Shown here piece after piece: positions 26,660-61,560 of a stretch of 64,000 nucleotides of DNA. The stretch comes from Agriterribacter humi (GTDB taxonomy: Bacteria; Bacteroidota; Bacteroidia; Chitinophagales; Chitinophagaceae): contig NZ_VOHQ01000002.1 of the NCBI RefSeq assembly GCF_009192765.1, positions 682,001-746,000 of the forward strand, in the 5' to 3' direction. Position 1 is the first letter of the stretch. Each line of letters begins with the position of its first letter. Under the pieces are notes generated by a model that searched no databases, had not been told where the DNA came from, and was given only the letters and a program-made list of their open reading frames with translations. The position numbers were made by a program, and so were the translations under genes.

Positions 26660-27469
26660 TCATCTTCCTTTTTTATGAATAATGTCAAATAATAACTCCG
26701 GCTCATTGGTGGTAATATAATCAAATTTATTATTGATAAACCACTGCATGTCTTCCGCATTGTTTACCGTCCAGGCATTCAGACTCACCCCAATTTTTTT
26801 AGCATCTGCGATCCAAGTGCTGTTCTTTTTAAATACGGCGAGGTGATAATCTGCACCCGAAATCTTATCTGCGGCTAATTGCCCGGGTGTTTTCTCGCCG
26901 TTGAGATAGGCGGTTTCCGCACCGGGCTGCAATTCGAGTACCTTTTTAAGGATATCATAGTCGAAACTGATATACATAACCCAGGGTTCGGCTTTTAGTT
27001 GCTTTACCAGGGCTACTACTTTTTCAGCCAAATATTGGCCCCGTTCCTTGCTTATAGTGGAAGGCTTGATCTCCAGTACGAGCCTGGTTTTTGTTTGCTG
27101 CATACCTGCCTGCAGGTAATTGTACACCGTAGGCAACATTTCACCATTAGACAGCTTTGTCGCCGACAGTTCGGCATAAGTGCTTTTTTCAATGGTTAAC
27201 CCGGCATAATGCGGGTCGTGGTTAACCACCAGGCTGTCATCTGCGGTAAGATGTACATCAAACTCAGATCCCGTACAACCTATCCGCACCGCTTCTTTTA
27301 ATGAGGCAATAGAATTTTCGGGCAGCTTGTTTTTCTTCCAGGCGCCACGATGGGCAACAACTATATTGGGGGCAAACGACAGAGCAGAAGCCTTTGTTTT
27401 TTTAGTGGACATACAACCGTTTGATAATAACAAAAAAAACACAGCAGGGAGTAAAAAAATCTTTTTCAT
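26660..27469 (-). CDS. Glycerophosphodiester phosphodiesterase lipoprotein
   Basis: This 269-aa protein has a lipoprotein signal peptide (LLLSNGC, Cys 19). The TIM-barrel GDPD domain covers almost all the rest. Active-site elements are visible: VVAHRGAWKKN with the first catalytic His and Arg, ENSIASL with the metal-binding Glu, GSEFDVHLT with Glu and Asp, and NHDP with the second His. The C-terminal barrel strand reads VSLNAWTVN, as usual. It splits glycerophosphodiesters to glycerol-3-phosphate and an alcohol in the periplasm or at the surface. A second, different GDPD is encoded at 60514. Confidence 0.93.
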   Translation of the reverse strand: MKKIFLLPAVFFLLLSNGCMSTKKTKASALSFAPNIVVAHRGAWKKNKLPENSIASLKEAVRIGCTGSEFDVHLTADDSLVVNHDPHYAGLTIEKSTYAELSATKLSNGEMLPTVYNYLQAGMQQTKTRLVLEIKPSTISKERGQYLAEKVVALVKQLKAEPWVMYISFDYDILKKVLELQPGAETAYLNGEKTPGQLAADKISGADYHLAVFKKNSTWIADAKKIGVSLNAWTVNNAEDMQWFINNKFDYITTNEPELLFDIIHKKGR

Positions 27470-48591: not shown

Positions 48592-51375
48592 TTAATTCTC
48601 AAACCGGTAAGTTCCTGCCGGCGCTTCAAATACAACATACCCGTCGCTGATCCCTGTTTTTTTTGCGTAAGATGAATTTACCTGAACCGTTTTTCCATCC
48701 TCATCAGGAAAATAAATGGTTGCCGAACAATTCGGGGGGATCGTAACCTCGTATACCAGCTTATTGTTTTCGCGCTTCCAGTGGGCTTTGATATTCCCGG
48801 AAGGGGAATCAAACTCCGCTTTTGCCCATGTTAACTGCTCCCCGGTGAGCTGAGGAACACGCAGGCTGAATTTCCTGAAGCCCGGGAAAGCATCATCCTT
48901 CCTGATCCCGGCTACTCCGTCAATATACCATGCTCCGGGATAAAGATAAGAGCTATGCAGCAGGGAGTGGCCGGGAAGATCTTTTTCCCACATCTCCCAC
49001 ATGGTAGTAGCGCCATTTTCACGCATAAAGCCCCAACCGGGGTACGTTGTTTGGGAAGTCATGGAATAGAGGAGATCATCGCGTCCTTCTTCCCGAAGCA
49101 CTTTAAACAACATAGTTCCCCCGGTTATTCCTGCGTCAATGTGCCCTTTCTGGTTGACCAGGATTTCTTTTTCTAATCGTTTCATGACCAAAGGACGCAA
49201 TCCGGCAGGCATAATATCTCCATACAATGCGGCAGCAAGGCTTCTCATGCTATTGTCAGCATAGTTGTGATCGTTAGCATGGTACCAGGTATGGTGGACA
49301 GCTTCGCTTGCCAGTTTTGCCTGTTTCTCCCATTGTGCAGCCTCTTCATTCCTGCCTATGACCCGGGCAAGCTTTGCGCCTGTTTTCAGGTTGTAAATCC
49401 AATAACAGTTATTGAAAAAAAGGTTTTCATCAGAATAATTGTTCATACCCTGTGTGGTAGCGTGCGGCCAAAGCCAGTCACCTAAAAAATCCCATCTTCC
49501 TCCGTAACGCTTTAGCATATTGTTTTTTACATGGGTATCTAAGAAACCCAGCCAGCCTTTGATCATATCAAAGTTTTCTTCTACGGCCCGTTTGTCGCCA
49601 AGGTATTCATAAAGGAACCAGGGCAGTGTAACCACAATTCCACCCCATGCCGGGCCGCCTCCGCCATGATAGGTGGGTGCGGTTTGGGGTAAGATCCCGC
49701 CGCCCAGGCGCCGTCCGCTTCCAGCCTGTTTATGTGCCCATGTTGTATCGTTCATGTTTCCAACCATTGGTTCTGTGCCCTGCACATCCCGCCAGTCCTG
49801 TAACCATTTGGTATAAAATGCACCCAGCCTGTAATTGAGCAATCCTGTTTCAGAAGTAGCATGTGCATCACCCCCGTAGCCAAATCGTTCACGTTGCGGA
49901 CAATCCACTATATAACCGCCGAGAGATAAATTTTCGAATGTCCATTTTACCGTATTGTAAATCCAGTTTTGCAAAGGATCTGAGCATTCAAAAGAGGTTG
50001 TGGATTTGAAATCCGTGCGCACCATCCATCCTTTAATATCGGCTTTCTGCGGAGCCTGCTTTACACCCTGTATCGTCATCCATCTTCCGGAGTTATAGTT
50101 AAACCTGTTTTTAAAAGTGCCCTCACCGGTTGGTCCGATAATATACAGGTTATGCAGTCCGTAGGTCATATCATCCTGTTGCCGTTCGGAAAAAAGCAGC
50201 CGGACAGTATCTCCCGGATTGCCTTTCACATGAACCTGTATCCATCCGGCAAAGTTTACACCCATATCTGCCCGGTACGTTCCGTTGCTACGGTGTTCAA
50301 TAGAAACCGGCTGTATCTCATCAAACAATGCATTGGTTTCAACCTGCTGGGCCGAAAGTTCCAGCTTCGGAGCATATACATTCACATTTTTCCATGCCTC
50401 GTCATTATAGTCTGTCGTATTCCAGCCAGGGATATCTTTATTGGCGTCCCAGATCTCACCTCCATATCCGCCCACACCAAAGCCCCAGTTCCCGATGAGC
50501 TGGCCTGGGCTTGAATGTGTTTTCCATGTTTCGTTGGTAATAATTCTGGCTATTCGCTGATTATGCTTTCCAATAATATCAGTCTGGGCTATAACTATAG
50601 GGGTCCTGGGCTTATCGGGTGTAGCATAAGGTGCATATATAGACCAGGAAGTGCCCAGCCATAAGCCAATAACATTTTTTCCAGGTTGCAGGGCACCGGT
50701 TATATCATAAGCGATATACCGGGCGCGTTGGGTGTGGTCTGTTACGGCAGGCGCCAAAACATGGGCGTCTATTTTTTTACCGTTGATGTACACTTCATGG
50801 TATCCTACGGATGCCACATACAGCACGGCTCTTTCGGGCTTTGTTTTCAAATCAAATGATTTCCTCATCCACGGATCGGGTATTTTATTGCTGCCCTTAT
50901 ATGGATCATACACTTCATTTGTGCCGATCCATTTTGCTGTCCATTCTTTTTGATCAAACAAACCGGTGCTGAAATGCGCGGTTTCGCCCAATGACGATAC
51001 CATTCCCTTTTCGTCTTTTACGCTTACTGTCCAGTAATAATCTTTATCAGACAGAAGTGTTTTGCCTTTGTAAGGAATAAGTTGTGATTCGCCGGACAGT
51101 ACCCAGCCGCTATTCCATATAACTGCTTTGTTTTTGTTAAGCTGATCTTTTGCGGACCTGACCAGTATACGATAAGCCGTTTGTTTTTGAGCAAAAGCCG
51201 AAGCGTCTGCCGGAGCGAGCTTCCAACTGAAACGGGGTTGTTTTATATCCAGTCCGCCGGGATGATCAAGATATTCACAGGTAAGCGCTACAGGATAAAT
51301 GCTGGATTTGTTTTGTGCGGAAACAGCAGAAAAAGCGCTGAAAAGAAAAGACAGGAGAATAAGTTTTATAGACAT
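48592..51375 (-). CDS. Alpha-L-rhamnosidase, GH78
   Basis: The protein is 927 aa from ATG 51375; TTG 51381 gives two extra residues. A signal peptide (about 1-21, ending VSAQ) leads to an N-terminal Ig-like domain (YPVALTCEYLDHPGGLDIKQPRFSW). Two beta-sandwich accessory domains follow, with the concanavalin-like RADMGVNFAGWIQVHV, and then the (alpha/alpha)6 barrel (about residues 440-800). The catalytic segment DCPQRERFGYGGDAHAT holds Asp and Glu expected for GH78; ETGLLNYRLGAFYTKWLQDW follows. A final beta-domain ends near PAGTYRFEN. It removes terminal rhamnose from plant or bacterial glycans outside the cell. No TonB-dependent pair is adjacent. Confidence 0.94.
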   Translation of the reverse strand: MSIKLILLSFLFSAFSAVSAQNKSSIYPVALTCEYLDHPGGLDIKQPRFSWKLAPADASAFAQKQTAYRILVRSAKDQLNKNKAVIWNSGWVLSGESQLIPYKGKTLLSDKDYYWTVSVKDEKGMVSSLGETAHFSTGLFDQKEWTAKWIGTNEVYDPYKGSNKIPDPWMRKSFDLKTKPERAVLYVASVGYHEVYINGKKIDAHVLAPAVTDHTQRARYIAYDITGALQPGKNVIGLWLGTSWSIYAPYATPDKPRTPIVIAQTDIIGKHNQRIARIITNETWKTHSSPGQLIGNWGFGVGGYGGEIWDANKDIPGWNTTDYNDEAWKNVNVYAPKLELSAQQVETNALFDEIQPVSIEHRSNGTYRADMGVNFAGWIQVHVKGNPGDTVRLLFSERQQDDMTYGLHNLYIIGPTGEGTFKNRFNYNSGRWMTIQGVKQAPQKADIKGWMVRTDFKSTTSFECSDPLQNWIYNTVKWTFENLSLGGYIVDCPQRERFGYGGDAHATSETGLLNYRLGAFYTKWLQDWRDVQGTEPMVGNMNDTTWAHKQAGSGRRLGGGILPQTAPTYHGGGGPAWGGIVVTLPWFLYEYLGDKRAVEENFDMIKGWLGFLDTHVKNNMLKRYGGRWDFLGDWLWPHATTQGMNNYSDENLFFNNCYWIYNLKTGAKLARVIGRNEEAAQWEKQAKLASEAVHHTWYHANDHNYADNSMRSLAAALYGDIMPAGLRPLVMKRLEKEILVNQKGHIDAGITGGTMLFKVLREEGRDDLLYSMTSQTTYPGWGFMRENGATTMWEMWEKDLPGHSLLHSSYLYPGAWYIDGVAGIRKDDAFPGFRKFSLRVPQLTGEQLTWAKAEFDSPSGNIKAHWKRENNKLVYEVTIPPNCSATIYFPDEDGKTVQVNSSYAKKTGISDGYVVFEAPAGTYRFEN

Positions 51376-51641
51376 ATCCAATACGATGGTTGAGGCTAAG
51401 GTAATACTTATACCGTTGTACTTTACCTACGATATCATTTGGGGTGCATTCCAAATTGTCGCACTGCTTTGCTTCATGCGGGCAGTGGGAACACCGCCCA
51501 CTACGGACGCCCCGGTTGGTGTCTCCACCAACCGGTGACAGTTTGGAATACACCCTGTAATTTTGTTGCCCTATGCATTTCCATCAAAAGGGCGCCTTCC
51601 GTGCAGGAACGGTCACCCTTTGCATAAGTATAGTGCGTCTT
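51376..51641. repeat. Spacer with two hairpins, including a perfect 10-bp stem at 51512-51535
   Basis: CCGGTTGGTG-TCTC-CACCAACCGG is a perfect inverted repeat. A weaker GTGGG/CCCAC pair lies just left of it (51486-51502). Both lie between two minus-strand genes (fasciclin-like upstream, GH78 downstream), where they could end one transcript. No gene is seen. Confidence 0.7.
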
Positions 51642-52214
51642 TTATTTCGCCGGCGGAAGCAATACCGCGTCTATAACATGTATAATGCCGTTCGACGCGG
51701 GAATGGAGGTTATGATATTTGCTCCGTTCACCATGGTTTTTCCGTCTTTCACCGTAATGCTGATATTATTTCCGTTGGCTTGCCCAAAACTTTGCGCGTC
51801 GGTAAGCATTTCGGGTCTCAGCACGCCGATATATACATGATATTCCAGGATGTTGCGGAGATCATCTTTTTTTTCAGGTTTCAGTAAATCGGTTAAAGTG
51901 CCCGCAGGTAATTTGTCGAAAGCAGCATTGGTTGGGGCAAACACGGTAAAAGGTCCTGCATTGGAAAGCGCATCTACGTATTCCGCCGTTTGCAGCGCTT
52001 TTACAAGAGTGGTGTGATCGGCACTGCCTGCCGCTATTTTTACCACGTCTTTTTGGGATTCATCGTCCTGTACGCCGGACTGACCACTTAGCGGGGCGGC
52101 AGAACCTGTAGTTGCACTGGTAGCTTCAGTTGTACTGTTAGCCGTTTCGTTGCATGCCAGCCATAAAATTGCACCCAGAAGCAAGATTGACAGAGACAAG
52201 TAATTTCTTTTCAT
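51642..52214 (-). CDS. Fasciclin-domain lipoprotein
   Basis: The protein is 190 aa from ATG 52214; the frame extends to 52319 but the lipoprotein signal (LLLGAILWLACNE) fits only this start. After a Thr/Ser/Ala-rich linker, one fasciclin domain (about residues 55-190) shows HTTLVKALQTAEYVDALS, GPFTVFAPTNAAFDKLP, LRNILEYHVYIG and NGIIHVIDAVLLPP. Fasciclin proteins act in adhesion or periplasmic binding. Single gene, no operon partner visible. Confidence 0.92.
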   Translation of the reverse strand: MKRNYLSLSILLLGAILWLACNETANSTTEATSATTGSAAPLSGQSGVQDDESQKDVVKIAAGSADHTTLVKALQTAEYVDALSNAGPFTVFAPTNAAFDKLPAGTLTDLLKPEKKDDLRNILEYHVYIGVLRPEMLTDAQSFGQANGNNISITVKDGKTMVNGANIITSIPASNGIIHVIDAVLLPPAK

Positions 52215-52375
52215 AATCGTTTTATTGTTGTGTAGGTGAGGGGGTTCGCATATCTGATGCTTACTAAAACCTGTTGCAAAATAAAACAGGAAAACGGCGG
52301 CTGTTATGACGTTTGTCATACTTCTGCAAGATATCGGTCATTTGCAGCCGATCAGTGGGATTAATGGATATGCTT

Positions 52376-52406
52376 TTGAATTTAATATACAAACACCTTA
52401 TCTTTC
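52376..52406 (+). promoter_or_regulatory. Candidate promoter of the 52410 gene (near-leaderless)
   Basis: TTG at 52376-52378 and TATCTTTC at 52399-52406 are 20 bp apart, close to the Bacteroidota -33/-7 spacing. The -7 box ends 3 bp before ATG 52410, so the transcript would start at or near the start codon. Confidence 0.45.
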
Positions 52407-52409
52407 GGT

Positions 52410-53585
52410 ATGCAACCAAACCGTTACCGAATTGCATCGGTAGACATCCTTCGCGGTATCATTATGATCATCATGGCATTGGATCATACGCGGGAATTTT
52501 TTCATATTACCGCTATAACTGCCGATCCGCTCGATCCCGCAACTACTACCATTCCATTGTATTTTACCCGGTGGATCACCCATTATTGTGCGCCGGTATT
52601 TGTGCTGTTATCCGGCTTATCCGCTTACCTTTCCTCCCGTAATAAAACCCGCAGTGAGGCAAGTGTATTTCTGATCAAAAGAGGGATATGGCTCGTTTTT
52701 GTTGAAATTGTTGTTGTAACATTCGGAATTACATTCAACCCGTTTTACAACTTTATTATTTTACAGGTTATCTGGGCCATCGGTTGTAGTATGATATTAC
52801 TCGGACTGCTGTCAGCCTTTTCTTATAAAGCCGTGCTGGTAGCAGGCGTTGCCATAGTGGGCGGGCATAATATACTGGATTATGCTACGCTTCCTGACGG
52901 AGGTGTTGCCGGTAATTTATGGACTATATTATTTACTTCCCCCGGAGCGGTTATTCCGCTGAGCAGTACACATTTTATAGGCGCTTTCTATACTATCCTT
53001 CCCTGGACGGGTGTAATGTGCCTGGGCTTTAGTATGGGAAAATGGTTTCAAAAAGATTTTACTGCAGCAAGGAGAAAACGCCTGCTCATTATTACCGGTA
53101 TATCATTGACCGGACTGTTTATTATACTGCGATTGGTAAATGGGTATGGCGATCCCCGTTCATGGAGTGCTGCGGAAAATGGCTGGCTTTCTTTTTTGAA
53201 TACTACCAAATATCCGCCTTCCTTACAGTTTATTGCCATGACGATCGGCCCTTCAATATTGCTATTGGCGCTATTGGAAAATGTAAAAAGGCAGTGGGTT
53301 CATTCACTTTCTGCTTATGGCAGGGTGCCTTTCTTTTATTATGTACTGCATTTTTATATGCTGCATATTTTATTGGTGATTGCTTTTTTTATTTCAGGAC
53401 ATACTACAGCAGAAATTATTGATGTGCAGGGATCTCCTTTTTGGTTCCGGCCTTCAAATTTCGGCTATGGTTTACCGGTAGTATACCTGGTGTGGATAGC
53501 TGTGGTGGTGGCTTTATACCTGCCCTGCCGGTGGTTTAGCAATTATAAAATGGCGCACAGGCAATGGTGGTTGAGTTATATATAA
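52410..53585 (+). CDS. Integral membrane acyltransferase-like protein (HGSNAT/DUF1624 family)
   Basis: The protein is 391 aa with about ten membrane helices. The N-terminus reads RIASVDILRGIIMIIMALDHTREFF, with the DILRG and DHTR motifs typical of the heparan-alpha-glucosaminide N-acetyltransferase/DUF1624 group. A further conserved His/Tyr region is LHFYMLHILLV. Relatives are thought to acetylate sugars across the membrane with acetyl-CoA; the substrate here is unknown. No sugar-modifying partner lies next to it. Confidence 0.88.
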   Translation: MQPNRYRIASVDILRGIIMIIMALDHTREFFHITAITADPLDPATTTIPLYFTRWITHYCAPVFVLLSGLSAYLSSRNKTRSEASVFLIKRGIWLVFVEIVVVTFGITFNPFYNFIILQVIWAIGCSMILLGLLSAFSYKAVLVAGVAIVGGHNILDYATLPDGGVAGNLWTILFTSPGAVIPLSSTHFIGAFYTILPWTGVMCLGFSMGKWFQKDFTAARRKRLLIITGISLTGLFIILRLVNGYGDPRSWSAAENGWLSFLNTTKYPPSLQFIAMTIGPSILLLALLENVKRQWVHSLSAYGRVPFFYYVLHFYMLHILLVIAFFISGHTTAEIIDVQGSPFWFRPSNFGYGLPVVYLVWIAVVVALYLPCRWFSNYKMAHRQWWLSYI

Positions 53586-53642
53586 AGTAAATGAAGCGTG
53601 GCCGGCTATTGTTCGTTGCCCGGCGGAAGCAATAACAGAAGG

Positions 53643-54410
53643 TTATGCTGCAATAATAACATGTACTCCTGCTTTTTCTATTTTGGAAACCATTTCAGGG
53701 CTTACTTCTTTATCTGTGATAATATAGTCCACCTGGTCGAGATTGCAGATCTTACCCAATCCCCTGCGGTTAAATTTAGTACTGTCGGCCAGCACTGCAA
53801 CGGTGTGTGCAAGTCCTATCATTTTCTGGTTCAGGCTGGCTTCCGTTAAATTGGTAATGGAGAGTCCATGTTCAAGATGAATACCATCCACGCCAAGAAA
53901 TAAAACGCCACAGGATAGTTCTTCCAGAATTTTTTCGGCGAATGAACCGGCACTGGAAGAGGAGCTCTGGTGGATGATTCCGCCGAGCTGCAGTATTTCC
54001 ACATTGGGGCGGTTGCACAATTCCAGCGATACTTTTAATGCGGGTGTAATAACGGTAATTCTTTTTTCGGGATGCAGGCAACGGGCCACTTCAAATACAG
54101 TAGTGCCGGAACCAATGATGATGGAATCATTATGGCCAATCAACGACAAAGCAGTACGTGCGATTTTTTTCTTTTCTTCCGACCTGATAAATTCTTTTTC
54201 GTTAATGGGCCGTTCAATGGCATAAGGATTGTTCATTGATCCTCCTCCGCGGGTGCGGAATAAAAGGTTTTTTTCTTCCAGCAGCTTAAGGTCTTTTCGC
54301 ACGGTAACGCCGCTCACCTTCATCTGGGCAATAAGCTGGGGGATACTCACTTTTCCTTTTTCCTGCAATTTTTTCAGGATGAACTGGTGCCTGTCGGTCA
54401 TCGTCTTCAT
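53643..54410 (-). CDS. DeoR/GlpR-family transcriptional regulator
   Basis: The protein is 255 aa. The N-terminal winged helix is RHQFILKKLQEKGKVSIPQLIAQMKVSGVTVRKDLKLLEEK (residues 7-47). The C-terminal sugar-phosphate-sensing domain has IIIGSGTTVFEVAR, NRPNVEILQLGG, FLGVDGIHLEHG and ADSTKFNRRG, as in DeoR repressors that respond to phosphorylated sugars. It is divergent from the 54658 permease operon, with TTTCA repeats in the shared spacer. Likely local repressor, relieved by a phosphorylated product of the FGGY kinases. Confidence 0.93.
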   Translation of the reverse strand: MKTMTDRHQFILKKLQEKGKVSIPQLIAQMKVSGVTVRKDLKLLEEKNLLFRTRGGGSMNNPYAIERPINEKEFIRSEEKKKIARTALSLIGHNDSIIIGSGTTVFEVARCLHPEKRITVITPALKVSLELCNRPNVEILQLGGIIHQSSSSSAGSFAEKILEELSCGVLFLGVDGIHLEHGLSITNLTEASLNQKMIGLAHTVAVLADSTKFNRRGLGKICNLDQVDYIITDKEVSPEMVSKIEKAGVHVIIAA

Positions 54411-54479
54411 GTAAACAATTTTTTAAAAATATGTAGTGTCCTTTCTGTCAGCCAAAATTCATGATAATTTTTTGTAATT

Positions 54480-54504
54480 TCAAAAACTTTCAAATGGTTT
54501 CATG
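54480..54504. promoter_or_regulatory. Phased TTTCA repeats, candidate DeoR operator 1
   Basis: TTTCA occurs at 54480, 54490 and 54500, exactly 10 bp apart, so all copies face the same side of the helix. This is the form of operator known for DeoR/GlpR regulators. It lies 70 bp upstream of the regulator start, in the shared spacer. Confidence 0.6.
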
Positions 54505-54560
54505 TTGTTCTCACGGCATAAGAATAACATCCACGTAAGATAGGTTGTTTTAGAATTGTA

Positions 54561-54583
54561 AACTTTCAAATACTTTTATTTTG
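54561..54583. promoter_or_regulatory. Candidate DeoR operator 2 (AACTTTCAAAT copy)
   Basis: AACTTTCAAAT at 54561-54571 repeats exactly the sequence at 54487-54497, 74 bp away, and is followed by TTTTA 10 bp later. Two sites at this distance suit looping repression. It lies about 40 bp upstream of the operon -7 box. Confidence 0.55.
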
Positions 54584-54608
54584 TTTTAAATTGTTTAATT
54601 TACTTACT

Positions 54609-54616
54609 TATATTTG
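54609..54616 (+). promoter_or_regulatory. Candidate -7 box (TATATTTG) of the putative polyol operon
   Basis: TATATTTG fully matches TAnnTTTG and ends 41 bp before ATG 54658. No TTG at the best -33 spacing; the upstream DNA is AT-rich. Confidence 0.5.
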
Positions 54617-54657
54617 GATTGGATAAGATAACGATTGTTTTACATTAACCTGTTTTT

Positions 54658-55947
54658 ATGCAGCCAAATGACCATTCGCTTTTTGCCAAAGCCGGTATAC
54701 CCCGCCAGTTAACATGGGGTTACCTCGGTATCCTGATATTTATGATGGGTGATGGAATGGAACAGGGCTGGCTGAGTCCATACCTTATTGAACAGGGAAT
54801 GAATATTACCCAAACCGCTTCTTTATTTACCGCCTACGGTGTTACGATTGCGATTTCTTCCTGGTTTTCGGGAGTGCTGGCAGAAAGTTATGGGCCTAAA
54901 AAAACGATGGCAATGGGTTTGCTGCTGTACCTTGCCGGAACCATTGGTTTCGTAGGATATGGAATGGCAAATCTCGATTTTCCCGTGATGCTGCTTACCT
55001 ACGCTCTCCGCGGATTTGGTTATCCTTTATTCGCCTATTCTTTTTTAGTATGGATATCGTACGCTACACCCAAAGAAATGCTGGGACGTGCAGTGGGTTG
55101 GTTTTGGTTTGTATTTACCGGCGGGCTGAATGTGTTAGGCGCTTTTTATTCCAGTTGGGCCATTAAAGAGCTGGGGCATATTAACGCATTATGGAGTTCC
55201 GTATTCTGGGTGCTTATCGGCGCTTTATTTGCCCTGGTGTTCAATAAAACAAAATTTGAATCCGGATACACTACTCCCGAAAGTAAGATGAAGGAATTGC
55301 TGAAGGGCTTTACCATTATGAAAGAAGAGCCAAAAGTGTTGCTTGGCGGCATCGTTCGTATTATCAATACAACCGCTCAATTTGCATTCCCGGTTTTTTT
55401 GCCCACTTATATGGCATTGCATGGCTTTTCCACTACGGAATGGTTATATATATGGGGAACGATCTTTACCAGTAATATTATTTTCAACCTCATTTTTGGT
55501 TTTGTGGGCGACAGGCTGGGCTGGCGCAAAACAATCATGTGGTTTGGCGGTGTAGGCTGTGCGCTAACAACCTTGTTCTTGTATTATATACCGCAGTTTT
55601 CGGCAGGCAATTACTGGCTGATCATGTTTGCCGGGATTTTATGGGGCGCCTGCCTGGCAGGGTATGTTCCCTTATCGGCTCTTGTACCTTCCTTGGTGAA
55701 TAAAGACAAAGGCGCGGCAATGGCTGTGCTGAACCTCGGGGCAGGACTTGCAGTTTTTGTTGGTCCCGCTATTGTGGGCTTATTCATAGGCATAGCCGGT
55801 AATGAGGGCGTAATCTGGATTCTGGCAAGCCTTTACCTGCTCAGTGCTGTATTAACCAAATTCATAACGCTTCCGGATAACCGTAAATCTGCCCGGCACG
55901 CTGCCTATGAAGGTTTGCCTGTTGTATCAGAAAAGCCTGTTCTCTGA
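54658..55947 (+). CDS. Polyol MFS transporter, RbtT/DalT/CsbX type
   Basis: This 429-aa protein has 12 predicted membrane helices. The N-terminus has WGYLGILIFMMGDGMEQGWLSPYL, matching ribitol/arabinitol permeases. The loop AESYGPKKTMAMGL replaces the more usual GxxxDRxGRR, and GFVGDRLGWRKTIMWFGG in the second half matches the MFS D-R-GRR pattern. It imports a pentitol or similar polyol with protons. It is first in a plus-strand operon and divergent from a DeoR regulator. Substrate inferred only from family. Confidence 0.88.
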   Translation: MQPNDHSLFAKAGIPRQLTWGYLGILIFMMGDGMEQGWLSPYLIEQGMNITQTASLFTAYGVTIAISSWFSGVLAESYGPKKTMAMGLLLYLAGTIGFVGYGMANLDFPVMLLTYALRGFGYPLFAYSFLVWISYATPKEMLGRAVGWFWFVFTGGLNVLGAFYSSWAIKELGHINALWSSVFWVLIGALFALVFNKTKFESGYTTPESKMKELLKGFTIMKEEPKVLLGGIVRIINTTAQFAFPVFLPTYMALHGFSTTEWLYIWGTIFTSNIIFNLIFGFVGDRLGWRKTIMWFGGVGCALTTLFLYYIPQFSAGNYWLIMFAGILWGACLAGYVPLSALVPSLVNKDKGAAMAVLNLGAGLAVFVGPAIVGLFIGIAGNEGVIWILASLYLLSAVLTKFITLPDNRKSARHAAYEGLPVVSEKPVL

Positions 55948-55972
55948 TTATTGAGCCAAATGTAATAACCAT

Positions 55973-56983
55973 ATGAAAATATTAGTAACTGCACCTTATC
56001 ATGAGGAAGGATTATTTGAACTGAAAAAGAATTTCGGCGAAGTAATTTATAAGCCCTGGAAAGGGAATAACCGGGCTTATAATGAAACGGAATTGCTGGG
56101 TTTGCTGGATGAAACAAAAGCAGATGCGCTGATCACGGAACACGACCACGTAACAGAGAAAGTTATTAACGCCAATGCACACCTGCAGTTTATTGGTGTT
56201 TGCCGTGGTACCCCTTCCAATGTAGCTGTGCATGTGGCTACGGGTTATGGTATTCCTGTATTTTATACGCCTGCACGCAACGCCCAGGCAGTGGCGGAAA
56301 TGTTTATCGCCAACACAATTACCTTTATGCGGCATACGCTTCCGGCTATGGATTGGCTTCTGAAAAGAAAATGGGATGCGGGGGCGCATACTTCTTATCT
56401 TCAGTTTAAAGGAAATGAGCTGGCGGGTAAAACAGTGGGTATGGTGGGTTTCGGCGCTATTGGCCAACTGATAGCCCGGATGATTGAAAATTATCCCTGT
56501 TCCGTGCAATTCTATGATCCCTATGTAATGGAAGCTGCTTTTCCTTCCTTTAAAAAAACATCGCTTGAGGATGTTTTTGCTTCAAGTGATATTGTTTCTG
56601 TTCATTTGCCGGTAACCGAAGATACCAGGGGAATGATCAATAAAAACCTTTTCGGGCTGATGAAAAAAGACGCCATCTTCGTTAACACAGCCCGGGCAGC
56701 AGTAGTAAATCGTAACGACTTGTATGAAGTTTTGCAGCAAAAAAAAATCAAAGGCGCCATACTGGATGTGTTTGATCATGAACCTCCGGATGAATTGGAT
56801 TATAAGATCATTGACATGCCCAATGTAATGGCTACGCCACATATTGCCGGCGCCAGCTTTGAAGTTGAGGATCATCATGTGCGCATTATGAATGAAGCCC
56901 TGATGGCGTGGTTTATACAGGGCAACAAATCAACCGGAAGGCTTTATAATAAACAGGTATTATCAGCAAATATTCAACGATAA
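55973..56983 (+). CDS. D-2-hydroxyacid dehydrogenase family protein
   Basis: The protein is 336 aa. The NAD-binding loop is VGMVGFGAIGQLIARMIE (about residues 153-170). The catalytic Arg lies in VNTARAAVVNRNDL, Glu in AILDVFDHEPPDE and His in ATPHIAGAS, so the three key residues are complete. The substrate-binding N-terminal part (ALITEHDHVTEKVI, FIGVCRGTPSNV) differs from phosphoglycerate dehydrogenase. It likely oxidises or reduces a sugar acid or a related hydroxy-compound in the polyol pathway. It starts 25 bp after the permease stop. Confidence 0.9.
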   Translation: MKILVTAPYHEEGLFELKKNFGEVIYKPWKGNNRAYNETELLGLLDETKADALITEHDHVTEKVINANAHLQFIGVCRGTPSNVAVHVATGYGIPVFYTPARNAQAVAEMFIANTITFMRHTLPAMDWLLKRKWDAGAHTSYLQFKGNELAGKTVGMVGFGAIGQLIARMIENYPCSVQFYDPYVMEAAFPSFKKTSLEDVFASSDIVSVHLPVTEDTRGMINKNLFGLMKKDAIFVNTARAAVVNRNDLYEVLQQKKIKGAILDVFDHEPPDELDYKIIDMPNVMATPHIAGASFEVEDHHVRIMNEALMAWFIQGNKSTGRLYNKQVLSANIQR

Positions 56984-56993
56984 ATTTGTACAG

Positions 56994-58448
56994 ATGCAAT
57001 CCAAAGATGCTTACCTGGTTATTGATATTGGAACAGGAAATGTGAGGGTAGTGGTTGTGCAACCGGATGGAGAAGTATTGGGAGCGGCCCGTGATGATAT
57101 TCATTATTTCAGGGATACACTTTATCCTGATGCCATTTTTTTTGAACCCAACCAGTTGTGGCAACAGTTGGTGTTACTGGGCAAAACGGCGCTGGAACAG
57201 GCTGGTGATATTGTAATAAAGGCAGCAACGGCAACCAGCCAGCGCGAAGGGATTGTAATGGTAAGCAAGGAAGGGGAGTCGTTGATCGGGTTACCCAATA
57301 TTGATCATCGTGGCAGGGAATGGGAAGCAATAATAAAAGATAAAAGCAGGGTATATCAATTAACCGGTCGCTACCCCACTTCATTGTTTTCGGCATTAAA
57401 ACTGGTAGCCATTAAGGAGCGGCGGAAAGATATATGGGATAAGTGCTCCTTTTTTCTGAGTATCAGCGATTGGGTGGAATACAAGCTGAGCGGCGTTGCC
57501 ACCTGTGAACATTCACATGCGTCTGAAACATTACTTTACGATATAGCCGGGCAACAATGGAATGATGAACTGTCGGGCATTTTTTCGATTCAGAAAAAAT
57601 ATTTACCGCCATTGCAATCTTCTGCTACAGTAATTGGTCAGGTATTGCAGCACAGGGCAGATGAGTTTTGTATTTCCGGCACTGCTTTAATCGTAAAGGG
57701 TGGGGGAGATACCCAGCTTGCTATCAAAAGCACACAACCTTCTGTAGAAGATATTGTGATTGTTTCGGGCACTACCACTCCGGTTGTAAAGTTGACAGAC
57801 AGGTATATAACGGATACGGAGGAACGAACCTGGACAAGCCGCGACATAGAGAAAGGAAGATTTGTGCTTGAGGCGAATGCGGGAGTTACCGGGCTCAATT
57901 ACCAGCGGTTAAAGGAAGTTTTTTATCCCAATGAAGGATATGATGTAATTGAAAAAGAATTAAACGCCAGTGTTCAAAATCATTGCACAGCATCTTTGGG
58001 TTCACTGATCGCTACTGAAAAATCGCCGGTTACAACTGGCGGATTTATTTTCTCCGTACCGGTGTCGCATGAGCTCACACGCAGTAGTTTTGTTTGGGCT
58101 ACCTTACTGGATATCGCATTTTCTATTGCAGAAAATCATAAGGTGCTGCGGGATGTAGCAGGACATGCCCCGGATTATGTATGGGCATGTGGCGGTGGCT
58201 TACAAAGTAAAGCATTGCGCCAGCTAATAGCGGATATTACAGGAAAGAAAGTGCAGGTGAGGCATGGCTTTGAACAATCATCAGCAGTAGGCGGAGCGCT
58301 CATTTGCAACGAAGCTTTGCATACAGCAGATGTTTTATTGCATGCAGGTATTGAAATCATATCTCCCCGGCAGAACGAACAGGAAGCGTTTGCAGCTTTG
58401 TATAAAAAATGGAGTGATACCAGAAAATATTTCAGGCAAATTTGCTGA
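56994..58448 (+). CDS. FGGY carbohydrate kinase, LsrK-like
   Basis: The protein is 484 aa. The first phosphate loop is IDIGTGNVRVVVVQPDGEV (about residues 10-28). SQREGIVMVSKEG and LPNIDHRGREWE match the autoinducer-2 kinase branch of the FGGY family. ISDWVEYKLSG and VKGGGDTQLAI follow in the same order as in LsrK. The C-terminal ATP site is WACGGGLQSKALRQLIADITG. It phosphorylates a small polyol or keto-sugar. It is the third gene of the operon, 10 bp after the dehydrogenase. Substrate unknown; AI-2 processing genes (lsrF, lsrG, luxS) are not adjacent. Confidence 0.88.
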   Translation: MQSKDAYLVIDIGTGNVRVVVVQPDGEVLGAARDDIHYFRDTLYPDAIFFEPNQLWQQLVLLGKTALEQAGDIVIKAATATSQREGIVMVSKEGESLIGLPNIDHRGREWEAIIKDKSRVYQLTGRYPTSLFSALKLVAIKERRKDIWDKCSFFLSISDWVEYKLSGVATCEHSHASETLLYDIAGQQWNDELSGIFSIQKKYLPPLQSSATVIGQVLQHRADEFCISGTALIVKGGGDTQLAIKSTQPSVEDIVIVSGTTTPVVKLTDRYITDTEERTWTSRDIEKGRFVLEANAGVTGLNYQRLKEVFYPNEGYDVIEKELNASVQNHCTASLGSLIATEKSPVTTGGFIFSVPVSHELTRSSFVWATLLDIAFSIAENHKVLRDVAGHAPDYVWACGGGLQSKALRQLIADITGKKVQVRHGFEQSSAVGGALICNEALHTADVLLHAGIEIISPRQNEQEAFAALYKKWSDTRKYFRQIC

Positions 58449-58453
58449 GCAAA

Positions 58454-59914
58454 ATGATGGAATCATATTTTATAGGTATTGATATTGGAACGCAGGGCGC
58501 AAGAGTAGTATTGCTGGATCAAAAAGGCAAACAGCTTGCTGCAAAAGAGGAAGTGTTTACATTAACCGCCCGGCAGGCTCAGGCGCAATCGCCGCAACAA
58601 TGGTGGCAATCCTGCTATAGCTTACTGCAATCGGTATGCATGGCGTTAGTAACCGAAATTGATCTTTCCTGCGTTAAAGCCATCACGGTTACTTCTACAT
58701 CGGGTACCATCATTCCGCTCAATAAAAACAATGAACCCCTGCACGAAGCCATTATGTATAGCGATACCCGGTCGGCAGAGCAGGCTTTACGATGCAGGGA
58801 AGCGGCTTTAGCTTCGGGGTATGGAGGGTATACCGGTTTTAACAGTTCCGCGGGACTGCCAAAGATGCTGTGGTTTATGGAAAGATATCCCGAAAAAATG
58901 GGGGAGCTGAGCAGGTTCATTCACGCGGCAGATTTTATCACTGGAAAATTATCCGGCAACTTTTCAGTTACCGATTATACCAATGCATTAAAATCGGGCT
59001 TTGATGCCAGGGCTCTGGAATGGCCCGCTTATCTCTTTGATACGTTGCCCCTGCAGCGTAAATGGTTACAGGACGTAGTGCCCTCGGGCAAGCCGGTTGG
59101 TGTCATCAAAAAAGAACTCTCAGGGGAACTCAACTTATCTCCACAGGTAATTGTTACAGCAGGTATAACCGATGGTTGCGCTTCGCAGGTAGCTTCGGGA
59201 GCGGTAAATGCAGGCGACTGGAATACAACGATCGGAACCACACTGGTAATAAAGGGCGTAACAAAAAAGGAGATCATTGATCCTTCCGGAGCATTATATT
59301 GCCACCGGCATCCCCAAGGATACTGGATGCCGGGTGGCGCCAGCAATACAGGGGCCGGCTGGGTGAACCGGTTGTTTGATCCTGCACGCACAGAGGAGCT
59401 TAATGTTGCTGCCGCTCAACTGATACCTACAGGAAAACTGGCATGGCCGCTGATGCAGGACGGCGAACGTTTTCCTTTTGTAGCGCCACAGGCAAGAGGT
59501 TTTGCCCCGGGGGAGATAAAGGAAACTGAACTGTTTGCTGCTTATCTTGAAGCTGTGGCATATATAGAAAGATATGCTTATGAAAAAATAATGGGATTAT
59601 CCGGCGAAAAAATAGAACAAGTATTTGCAGCGGGAGGAGGAAGCCATAGTGATACCTGGCTCATTATCCGCAGCAGTGTATTGGGTTTGCCCATCCGCAA
59701 AATGAAAAATGTTTCCGGTGCTGCCGGGGCTGCGATTGTTGCGGCATCTCAAACGCATTATAATTCCTTAACAGAGGCAGCGCAGACAATGACAGGGCCT
59801 GAAAAATTAATACAACCGCACAGCACCCTGGTGGTTGCTTATGAAAAACATTACCATCGTTTTATAAATACCTTAAAAGAAAAGGGATATATTTCCCAAC
59901 AGCAATATGTATAA
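58454..59914 (+). CDS. FGGY carbohydrate kinase, xylulokinase/gluconokinase-like
   Basis: The protein is 486 aa from ATG 58454, 5 bp after the previous stop; a TTG 12 bp upstream would overlap it. The first loop is IGIDIGTQGARVVLLDQKGK, then VTSTSGTIIPLNKNNEPL, MYSDTRS, and TAGITDGCASQVASGAV with the catalytic Asp. The C-terminal ATP motif is FAAGGGSHSDTWLIIRSSVLG. It differs clearly from the preceding kinase, so the operon has two different sugar kinases rather than a simple duplication. Likely cytoplasmic phosphorylation of a ketose, polyol or sugar acid. Confidence 0.88.
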   Translation: MMESYFIGIDIGTQGARVVLLDQKGKQLAAKEEVFTLTARQAQAQSPQQWWQSCYSLLQSVCMALVTEIDLSCVKAITVTSTSGTIIPLNKNNEPLHEAIMYSDTRSAEQALRCREAALASGYGGYTGFNSSAGLPKMLWFMERYPEKMGELSRFIHAADFITGKLSGNFSVTDYTNALKSGFDARALEWPAYLFDTLPLQRKWLQDVVPSGKPVGVIKKELSGELNLSPQVIVTAGITDGCASQVASGAVNAGDWNTTIGTTLVIKGVTKKEIIDPSGALYCHRHPQGYWMPGGASNTGAGWVNRLFDPARTEELNVAAAQLIPTGKLAWPLMQDGERFPFVAPQARGFAPGEIKETELFAAYLEAVAYIERYAYEKIMGLSGEKIEQVFAAGGGSHSDTWLIIRSSVLGLPIRKMKNVSGAAGAAIVAASQTHYNSLTEAAQTMTGPEKLIQPHSTLVVAYEKHYHRFINTLKEKGYISQQQYV

Positions 59915-60503
59915 TATTTTTTTACTGCGGCATGGAGAAACAGCCCGGAATGCGGATAATAACCGTTATTGCGGCCGAACGGATGTGCCGCTTACAGCAA
60001 AAGGTATACAACAGGCCGAAGCAGTAAGGGATCAATTGAAGCATATCCACTTTGATGAGATCTGTTCATCGCCACTCGAAAGAGCTTATACCACTGCGGA
60101 AATCGCTTCCCGCAGACCTGTAAAAAAAGATGAGCGATTGATTGAAGCCGATTTCGGCAAATGGGAAAACAAAACAAAGGAAGAATTTATTGCAGAGAAT
60201 GAAAAGTTGTGGACGAACTGGATGACCGATCCTGCCACAAACAGGGCCGGTGGAACCGGGGAAACGGGGATGGAAGTAGTGCGCAGGGTAGATAACTTTT
60301 TTACAGAACTATGCAACAATCATGAGCCGGGTAATTTTTTGGTAGTGGCCCATAATGGCGTAAACAGGTTGTATATGGCATATAAGCTGGGCATGCCTTT
60401 AAAGAACTACCGGCAACTGGTGCAGCTCAATTCCGCCGTTACCCTGTTCACCCTTGATGCGCAGGGCATTTTTACGCTTCAATATCTCAATTCAAAATTA
60501 TAA
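59907..60503 (+). CDS. Histidine phosphatase (phosphoglycerate-mutase-like)
   Basis: The protein is 198 aa and starts 8 bp inside the end of the second kinase gene, so it is probably translationally coupled. The catalytic motif is FLLRHGETARN (His about residue 9). SSPLERAYTTAEIA, ERLIEADFGKWENKT and VVAHNGVNRLYMAY hold the other Arg, Glu and second His. The family includes alpha-ribazole phosphatases and sugar-phosphate phosphatases. Placed with two kinases, it may remove dead-end phosphates or act on a phosphorylated intermediate. Confidence 0.9.
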   Translation: MYNIFLLRHGETARNADNNRYCGRTDVPLTAKGIQQAEAVRDQLKHIHFDEICSSPLERAYTTAEIASRRPVKKDERLIEADFGKWENKTKEEFIAENEKLWTNWMTDPATNRAGGTGETGMEVVRRVDNFFTELCNNHEPGNFLVVAHNGVNRLYMAYKLGMPLKNYRQLVQLNSAVTLFTLDAQGIFTLQYLNSKL

Positions 60504-60513
60504 ATCCATTTTT

Positions 60514-61455
60514 ATGAACAGGGGGGAACTATTTTTTTTCTTATGCATCGCTGTTTCTTGTTCGGTTCATGCCAGTGCACAACAATTGCACGTGCTGAAT
60601 ATTAACAGTGAAAAACAACTGCAACAATTTTTTAAATATACCGCCAGGGATATGCCGCTTATCAGTGGTCACAGGGGATGCCATATTAAAGATTATCCTG
60701 AAAACTCCATCGAGGCTTTTGAATACACACTAAAACATACGCCGGCATTTTTTGAAATAGATCCACGGCTTACAAAAGACAGTGTAATTGTGCTGCTGCA
60801 CGATGCTACATTAGACCGTACTACTACCGGTAAAGGCAAGCTCTCTGATTACACCTGGGAGGAAGTAAAGCAACTGAAGCTGAAAGACAGTGAAGGGAAG
60901 GTGACCGATTTTCACATACCTACGCTGGCAGCGGGTATTGAATGGGCAAGAGGAAAAACCATTCTGAATTTAGATAAAAAAGATGTTCCCCTTGCCCTAA
61001 CGGCAAAGGTTATCCGCGAACACAATGCTGGTTCTTTTGTAATGGTAACCGTGCACGATGCGCAGCAGGCTAAGTTCTACTACGATGATGATCACAACAG
61101 GATGATGTCAGCTTTTGTTAAAACAGAAGCCGACATGAAAGCCTATGAAGCCGCTGGTGTGCCCTGGTCGAATATGATCGCGTATATAGGCCCCGAAAAC
61201 AAACCGGAGAACAAAAAGATGTACGATTTGCTGCATAAACGTGGGGTTATGTGTATGATATCTGCCGCGCCTGTATACGACAAGTTGCCCGCTGCTGTGG
61301 CAAGGGCGGAGGCTTATAGAGAAACATTCCGCCAGGGAGCCGATATCCTGGAATCGGATCTCCCCGTGGAGGTTGCTGACGCAATTAAAAGCAGGCTACC
61401 CAAAAAAAGTAAGAAACAACAGTTTTTCCGGTTGGCTTCACCAATGTCACTATAA
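60514..61455 (+). CDS. Secreted glycerophosphodiester phosphodiesterase-like protein
   Basis: The protein is 313 aa from ATG 60514, 10 bp after the phosphatase stop. A signal peptide (about 1-22, ending ASAQ) leads to the GDPD TIM barrel: PLISGHRGCHIKDYPENSIEAF (first His, Arg, Glu), FFEIDPRLTKDS (Glu, Asp), and LHDATLDRTTTGKG (second His, Asp). It differs from the lipoprotein GDPD at 26660. Last gene of the operon. It may release glycerol-3-phosphate or a polyol from cell-wall or lipid phosphodiesters in the periplasm, feeding the permease. That link is inference. Confidence 0.9.
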   Translation: MNRGELFFFLCIAVSCSVHASAQQLHVLNINSEKQLQQFFKYTARDMPLISGHRGCHIKDYPENSIEAFEYTLKHTPAFFEIDPRLTKDSVIVLLHDATLDRTTTGKGKLSDYTWEEVKQLKLKDSEGKVTDFHIPTLAAGIEWARGKTILNLDKKDVPLALTAKVIREHNAGSFVMVTVHDAQQAKFYYDDDHNRMMSAFVKTEADMKAYEAAGVPWSNMIAYIGPENKPENKKMYDLLHKRGVMCMISAAPVYDKLPAAVARAEAYRETFRQGADILESDLPVEVADAIKSRLPKKSKKQQFFRLASPMSL

Positions 61456-61488: not shown

Positions 61489-61560
61489 AATACAACCTAC
61501 GGGTTGTAATTTCCTGTTGCCGATCTGTTTCCTGCGGAAACGCGCTCAGGCGATTGATAT
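61489..61560. repeat. TACAACCTACGGGTTGTA hairpin with GC-rich flanks
   Basis: TACAACC-TACG-GGTTGTA (61491-61508) is a perfect 7-bp stem with a 4-nt loop. Partial outer pairing (ATCGG... with ...CCGAT) extends it, and a CCTG...CAGG pair follows. It lies 35 bp after the GDPD stop and may end the operon. No gene seen in 61456-61678. Confidence 0.6.

Follow-up and report, generated by a model that had tools for sequence, protein, structure and literature searches.

A run of six plus-strand genes beside a divergent DeoR-family regulator gene, located in a 64,000-nucleotide stretch of the Agriterribacter humi genome (contig NZ_VOHQ01000002.1; hereafter the window), constitutes a real, conserved and uncharacterised gene set (Table 1). 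The run encodes an RbtT-family permease, a 2-hydroxyacid dehydrogenase (2HADH), two different FGGY kinases (FGGY1 and FGGY2) and a histidine phosphatase, together referred to as the core, followed by an exported-type glycerophosphodiester phosphodiesterase-family protein (GDPD). The gene content supports a route in which a phosphodiester is cut outside the cell and the small molecule obtained is imported, phosphorylated and oxidised. That this molecule is a polyol from phosphodiester-linked material, handled by a DeoR-controlled operon, is a reading to which we give slightly less than an even chance.

The ORF list, Pfam and NCBIfam agree with the coordinates and families first described for the seven genes, and the plus-strand run is as tightly packed as had been claimed, with successive distances from permease to GDPD of 25, 10, 5, −8 and 10 bases when downstream ATG starts are used. 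The better predicted start of FGGY2 is the in-frame ATG at 58454 rather than the TTG at 58442, and that of GDPD is the in-frame ATG at 60514, which a signal-peptide-like stretch follows, rather than the TTG at 60454. The stem downstream of GDPD is weak evidence of termination by itself, as 12 terminator-like sites were found in 8.4 kb against a shuffle mean of 9.2.

Table 1. Features of the operon and its flanks (window positions)
Feature	Position	Strand	Basis
DeoR-family repressor, HTH_DeoR + DeoRC	53643..54410	-	Pfam; best NCBIfam model AgaR, below its cut-off
Divergent intergenic region, T-rich repeats and TATATTTG at 54609-54616	54411..54657	.	Judged by eye, without statistic
RbtT/DalT/CsbX-family MFS permease	54658..55947	+	TIGR00897, 559 bits vs cut-off 375; tree
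2HADH, NAD-type by Asp182; R241/E270/H290; R78-x-x-P81-x-N83	55973..56983	+	Pfam, alignment
FGGY1, LsrK-like, motif QREG	56994..58448	+	Pfam, PDB match, tree, alignment
FGGY2, pentulose-kinase-like, motif TSTSGT	58454..59914	+	Pfam, PDB match, tree; TTG ORF from 58442
Histidine phosphatase, branch 1, alpha-ribazole-phosphatase-like, below cut-off	59907..60503	+	Pfam, NCBIfam
Exported-type GDPD-family protein, PDB 3mz2 homologue	60514..61455	+	Pfam, PDB match; TTG ORF from 60454
Terminator-like stem 3' of GDPD, weak	61491..61508	+	Stem scan

Conservation in relatives makes the set more than a chance arrangement. A search with FGGY1 matched 13 of the 195 genomes searched within the window's own family, Chitinophagaceae, and 3 of 395 genomes from across the phylum (the window genome counted in both), and 18 named loci were found in Flavisolibacter, Paraflavitalea, Niabella, Terrimonas, Pseudoflavitalea, Pedobacter, Dyadobacter, Mucilaginibacter, Leadbetterella and a Chitinophagaceae metagenome-assembled genome. 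Matching genomes of the family share their positions with the Paraflavitalea, Terrimonas and Pseudoflavitalea loci. Two other searched genomes of the window genus gave no FGGY1 match, and the operon thus looks like an accessory trait. Twenty-eight Bacteroidota loci can be read past the phosphatase gene (the window, L019–L036, L076–L079 and L081–L085), of which L031, cut by a contig end, was dropped for the five-gene order. In a tblastn recount, the order permease–2HADH–FGGY1–FGGY2–phosphatase is kept in 26 of these 27 loci, window included, and a secreted-type GDPD directly follows the phosphatase in 22 of the 28, across several families. The sequence-only reading had proposed a single operon and had staked its case beforehand on the gene order recurring outside this genome; both expectations are borne out by these counts, in which the loci are not independent events, since several share a genus. 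Operon frames are broken in places in the Niabella loci L021, L026 and L036, perhaps through assembly errors; these loci were counted from pieces (the L026 phosphatase was found in this way) and are described only. Among the short stretches L007–L018 and L037, ten (L008–L012, L015–L018 and L037) were extended as counted loci or lie in genomes of counted loci, L007 and L014 match L020 and L024, and L013, in which core genes were seen, stands outside the counts.

The GDPD scores 77.1 bits against PF03009 (gathering score 23.6), covering just 103 of 244 profile positions, and is homologous to PDB entry 3mz2 with an E value of 1.4e-103. Its N-terminus, by eye, fits the earlier description of a secreted enzyme. 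The GDPDs following the core in other loci are 49–76% identical to it, and three of the four other GDPDs of the window genome are 30–42% identical over short stretches, the fourth being unmatched at E 1e-3. A second GDPD-family gene in the window (26660–27469, minus strand) is unmatched by the operon GDPD. A comparable enzyme is the glycerophosphodiesterase GlpQ of Bacillus subtilis, whose substrate, wall teichoic acid, is a phosphodiester polymer (PMC7086022); for the window GDPD a teichoic-acid-like substrate, as first proposed, would be no more than a candidate.

The case for a phosphodiester-linked substrate is stronger with the larger loci of relatives, which add SusC/SusD and further phosphoesterases, than it would be from the window by itself. 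In the Chitinophagaceae loci L080/L024 and L075/L022 the order is DeoR (divergent), SusC, SusD, MFS permease, FAD oxidoreductase (PF12831), EEP-family enzyme, calcineurin-type phosphoesterase, core and GDPD. Judged by matches to L024 proteins, the EEP phosphoesterase is on the core strand in at least 17 of the 28 loci, the calcineurin-type phosphoesterase in at least 11 and SusC/SusD upstream in at least 10, these counts being lower bounds because the flanks differ in length. By eye, the EEP enzymes have a twin-arginine-like start, and the GDPDs and calcineurin-type enzymes have Sec-like signals. PDB relatives of the EEP enzyme include a mannosyl-6-phosphatase. The GlcNAc-phosphodiesterase of PMC10704324 is placed by its authors in a different EEP subfamily. 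Six Pedobacter loci carry the MFS permease and FAD enzyme downstream of the core; their EEP enzyme lies downstream in L027, L028 and L032 and upstream in L030 and L033, L031 being cut. L030 and L033 have a GDPD upstream adjoining a PafA-type phosphatase; in L033 this GDPD is a second one. The full loci share with Bacteroidota polysaccharide utilisation loci the SusC/SusD pair, exported hydrolases, a permease and a regulator, but differ in having phosphoesterases as their hydrolases. Neither the SusC fragment nor the SusD of L024 finds a match in the window, which, without the SusC/SusD pair, does not qualify as a polysaccharide utilisation locus.

Rhamnose-related genes were also seen near the operon in several lineages. 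A GH78-type alpha-L-rhamnosidase (Pfam) lies at 48592–51381 on the minus strand of the window; GH106 enzymes adjoin L034, L076 and, by BLAST, L078; L027 and, by BLAST, L028 and L032 have a rhamnose isomerase–kinase–aldolase set ahead of the operon; and L083 contains a GH141/RhaM-domain protein. This proximity, noted without a statistic, could hint at a rhamnose-bearing phosphodiester polymer.

The permease exceeds the RbtT/DalT/CsbX cut-off, in keeping with the polyol family first assigned to it. In the permease tree, the window group forms one clade with the Pseudalkalibacillus and Peribacillus permeases (100/100), and a wider, partly unresolved clade (99/99) adds the permeases of Klebsiella, Salmonella, Priestia and Pantoea plasmids. 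Pseudalkalibacillus DeoR, alcohol dehydrogenase, RpiB, DhaK, DhaL and GlpX genes neighbour its permease (73% identical to that of the window, tblastn), and alcohol dehydrogenase, DhaK, DhaL, RpiB and transaldolase genes neighbour those of the Klebsiella (L044) and Salmonella plasmids (54 and 53%); in all three loci GlpX, transaldolase or transketolase accompanies the alcohol dehydrogenase–DhaK–DhaL–RpiB genes. Such contents resemble the tetritol routes outlined in PMC12780249, among them the threitol pathway of M. smegmatis. Permease kinship is a lead towards a C4 polyol (tetritol) over ribitol or arabinitol. These tetritol/erythrulose-type loci, whose permeases are among the closest to that of the window (73–53%), differ from it in carrying alcohol dehydrogenase, DhaKL and RpiB in place of the FGGY kinases, 2HADH and phosphatase.

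The ribitol (rbt) and D-arabinitol (dal) operons of Klebsiella share an RbtT/DalT-family permease and an FGGY pentulose kinase with the window. Their permeases are distant in the tree, however, dalT being 36% and the ribitol-type permease 34% identical to that of the window. The Klebsiella ribitol-type locus also has an SDR dehydrogenase beside its kinase, and 2HADH, histidine phosphatase and GDPD are unannotated in its incomplete gene table. A pentitol dehydrogenase beside the pentulose kinase and RbtT/DalT permease, which defines such operons, was not found among the scanned proteins of the window operon; with the permease distance, this rules out a standard ribitol or arabinitol operon, as the sequence-only reading had held. 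No other core genes were detected by tblastn in RbtT-family loci of Acetobacter, S. angustmyceticus, Klebsiella and Pantoea. The erythritol pathway of Brucella and rhizobia uses a GlpD-like FAD dehydrogenase and isomerases, which the window operon lacks; as outlined in PMC12780249, it has phosphorylated erythrulose intermediates and the phosphate position is shifted before D-erythrose 4-phosphate. No description of the gene set was found in open-access full text, a body that mostly leaves out subscription literature.

Both the best PDB match of FGGY1 and its neighbour in the kinase tree are LsrK, so that the label LsrK-like fits, and the R-E pair of its acceptor loop (QREG; ARES in Enterococcus) is found in glycerol kinase as in LsrK. 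The corresponding motif of the partner kinases is QGDG in Streptomyces and rhizobia and QGEG in Klebsiella, and that of FGGY2 is TSTSGT. The best PDB matches of FGGY2 are the kinases 5htr and 5htn, which we take to be D-ribulose kinases. It falls in a clade common to Bacteroidota and Actinobacteria (100/99), which also holds a rhizobial kinase adjoining a rhamnose isomerase gene and a second S. meliloti kinase. Use of autoinducer-2 (AI-2) through an LsrK, or plain xylulose/ribulose utilisation, is suggested by the LsrK match and by XylB being the top NCBIfam model of FGGY2, but we consider it highly improbable and have set it aside: FGGY1 reaches 144 bits against the AI-2 kinase cut-off of 528 (NF008187), FGGY1 and FGGY2 reach 147 and 200 bits against the xylulokinase cut-off of 380 (TIGR01312), neither kinase exceeds any NCBIfam cut-off, and the nine proteins scanned from 51642–61455 include none of the LsrA, B, C, D, F or G families or xylose isomerase, the partners expected for such pathways. 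FGGY matches in Listeria and Staphylococcus have unrelated neighbour genes and were rejected.

Outside Bacteroidota, an FGGY kinase, FGGY2, histidine phosphatase and 2HADH occur together in Streptomyces sp. KN37, BHT-5-2 and NBC_01727 and in Nonomuraea. DeoR is present in all three Streptomyces loci and an RbtT-family permease in KN37 and BHT-5-2; the NBC_01727 plasmid has no RbtT match at E 1e-30. No GDPD match was found in the stretches covered for KN37, BHT-5-2 and Nonomuraea; in NBC_01727 a GDPD stands among sugar ABC genes at a distance of about 6 kb. The same 2HADH family and an FGGY partner are also found with a class II aldolase-family protein in Enterococcus raffinosus, Sinorhizobium, Shinella, Gemmobacter, Paracoccus, Klebsiella and Streptomyces sp. 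NBC_01592, the aldolase assignment being confirmed by Pfam for Enterococcus, Klebsiella and Streptomyces. These clusters differ from the window in the aldolase-family protein itself, in lacking the FGGY2-plus-phosphatase pair and, mostly, in their transporters; the Sinorhizobium cluster has an FGGY2-like kinase too. Since 2HADH and FGGY are partnered elsewhere by a class II aldolase, FGGY2 and the phosphatase may replace the aldolase on a similar ketose phosphate. The S. meliloti member of this 2HADH family has DeoR, triose-phosphate isomerase and RpiB genes at 6–8 kb on its own strand, a set known from rhizobial erythritol loci. The tags SMb21372–21377, a tentative assignment, are named in other contexts in two papers and were not used. 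On the Enterococcus raffinosus plasmid (L038, 8655–17687) the cluster comprises DeoR, an NhaC-like antiporter-family protein, 2HADH, an FGGY1 homologue, class II aldolase, iron alcohol dehydrogenase, an APH-fold kinase and an IF-2B/MtnA-family protein, the last two of which we read as MtnK- and MtnA-like.

On the polyol outline, the exported GDPD would cut a phosphodiester and free a polyol; in relatives, capture by SusC/SusD and the action of exported phosphoesterases of the EEP and calcineurin types would assist. The RbtT-clade permease would then import the polyol, perhaps a tetritol as its kin hint, FGGY1, through its LsrK-like acceptor loop, would phosphorylate it, and the NAD-type 2HADH would oxidise the phosphorylated product. 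Last in this presumed order, the histidine phosphatase and FGGY2, of ketose-kinase type, might shift the phosphate to the other end by dephosphorylation and rephosphorylation, after which a housekeeping isomerase such as RpiB, one of which is encoded in the window genome, could pass the product to the pentose phosphate pathway. The phosphate-moving detail is, in our estimate, unlikely. The same holds for the fuller picture of a phosphoesterase-based phosphodiester locus feeding a new intracellular route for polyols: the two FGGY kinases, with the phosphatase, would transfer a phosphate between the two ends of a ketose, and the 2HADH would be a polyol-phosphate dehydrogenase.

Several observations weigh against the polyol outline. 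In 6 of the 28 loci (L030, L034, L079, L082, L083 and L084; L030 has one about 12 kb upstream) no GDPD comes after the core, and in the four actinobacterial loci none is adjacent to it; the enzyme thus resembles a supply step added to the core more than a component of its chemistry. The core might even act on a free polyol or ketose, with the GDPD and phosphoesterases merely co-located for phosphate or glycerol-3-phosphate scavenging; this would fit the loci that lack an adjoining GDPD, but is improbable given that the enzyme directly follows the phosphatase in most loci over several families against 5 GDPD matches in the whole 5.7 Mb window genome, that the EEP and calcineurin-type phosphoesterases stand in the same run, and that one actinobacterial locus has its GDPD and sugar ABC genes nearby. 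The permease is missing in 1 of 27 loci (L079). For the FAD oxidoreductase and EEP enzyme, the window genome has just distant relatives, 29–35% identical and located elsewhere in it. At 183268–186386 of its contig C30 (G000), a relative of the FAD oxidoreductase is found about 2 kb from a weak FGGY match. The tetritol interpretation of the kin loci is itself drawn from gene content, and the Peribacillus permease (62%) lies near xylulokinase and PTS genes, the Priestia permease (56%) has genes for alpha-keto acid dehydrogenase and for sugar-binding regulators close by, and those of Klebsiella L055 and Pantoea likewise have other neighbours; with neighbours so different, permease kinship is a lead and not proof. 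Finally, the first kinase is on the LsrK side of the tree in Bacteroidota and Enterococcus and on another FGGY branch in Actinobacteria and rhizobia.

The hardest point is the dehydrogenase. None of the operon proteins scanned with Pfam is a dehydrogenase of the SDR, MDR or mannitol type, and the sole dehydrogenase present, in place of an ordinary polyol dehydrogenase, looks built for acids: it belongs to the 2HADH superfamily by Pfam match and retains the R/E/H triad, which in known 2HADHs handles a carboxylate beside the oxidised carbon. Oxidation of a polyol phosphate by a 2HADH is not known to us. In the alignment, R241/E270/H290 and Asp182, an Asp at this position being typical of NAD use, are kept in 18 of 18 2HADHs of these systems, as is R-x-x-P-x-N, which is found in none of three E. 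coli comparators; the 18 probably form one functional family, and the extra Arg is a candidate for binding a charged substrate. In the tree, the 2HADHs of Bacteroidota, Actinobacteria and the class II aldolase clusters group apart from E. coli SerA, GhrB and PdxB (93/87), the deep joins here and in the kinase tree being uncertain because of several long branches. Models of VanH-type D-lactate dehydrogenase score far below cut-off, and a phosphite dehydrogenase reading was set aside on general grounds.

The acid-type triad and R-x-x-P-x-N make a sugar-acid substrate a live rival, if a somewhat doubtful one. A small aldonate or 2-ketoaldonate would be imported, FGGY1 would phosphorylate it and the 2HADH would reduce or oxidise the product, much like the handling of 2-ketogluconate by KguK and KguD in Pseudomonas, FGGY2 and the phosphatase serving a later or second branch. 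The exchange of the FGGY partner around a constant 2HADH family agrees with this, as do the MFS permease of the larger loci, which resembles D-galactonate transporters, and the class II aldolase partners elsewhere, that family including decarboxylases of keto-acid phosphates. Against it, the operon permease is firmly of a polyol family, with some of its nearest relatives in polyol-type loci, and one would less readily expect a sugar acid to be supplied by a phosphodiesterase. Two solutions offer themselves: polyol phosphates may have become substrates of the 2HADH family, or the compound taken up may be a sugar acid or be turned into one. The original proposal is partly supported: gene content and the larger phosphoesterase loci favour a phosphodiester-derived small molecule that is imported, phosphorylated and oxidised, and on polyol versus sugar acid the evidence does not decide.

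A DeoR 54–82% identical to that of the window is found in or beside 17 of the 28 Bacteroidota loci, window counted: within the stretch in 15 and upstream of SusC in 2 more. The regulator is thus tied to the set, as first suggested, and may control the operon. Within the divergent region, TATATTTG fits what we take to be the Bacteroidota -7 element, TAnnTTTG, and comparable T-rich stretches, by eye, precede the RbtT, SusC or other MFS gene in several relatives.

If correct, the polyol outline would show soil-type Bacteroidota feeding on phosphate-linked polyols, such as wall polymers and glycerophospho-polyols. It would also bring together, in one pathway found in two phyla, several families whose sole annotation is 'kinase', '2-hydroxyacid dehydrogenase' or 'histidine phosphatase', and would provide a testable function for the uncharacterised 2HADH subfamily with R-x-x-P-x-N.

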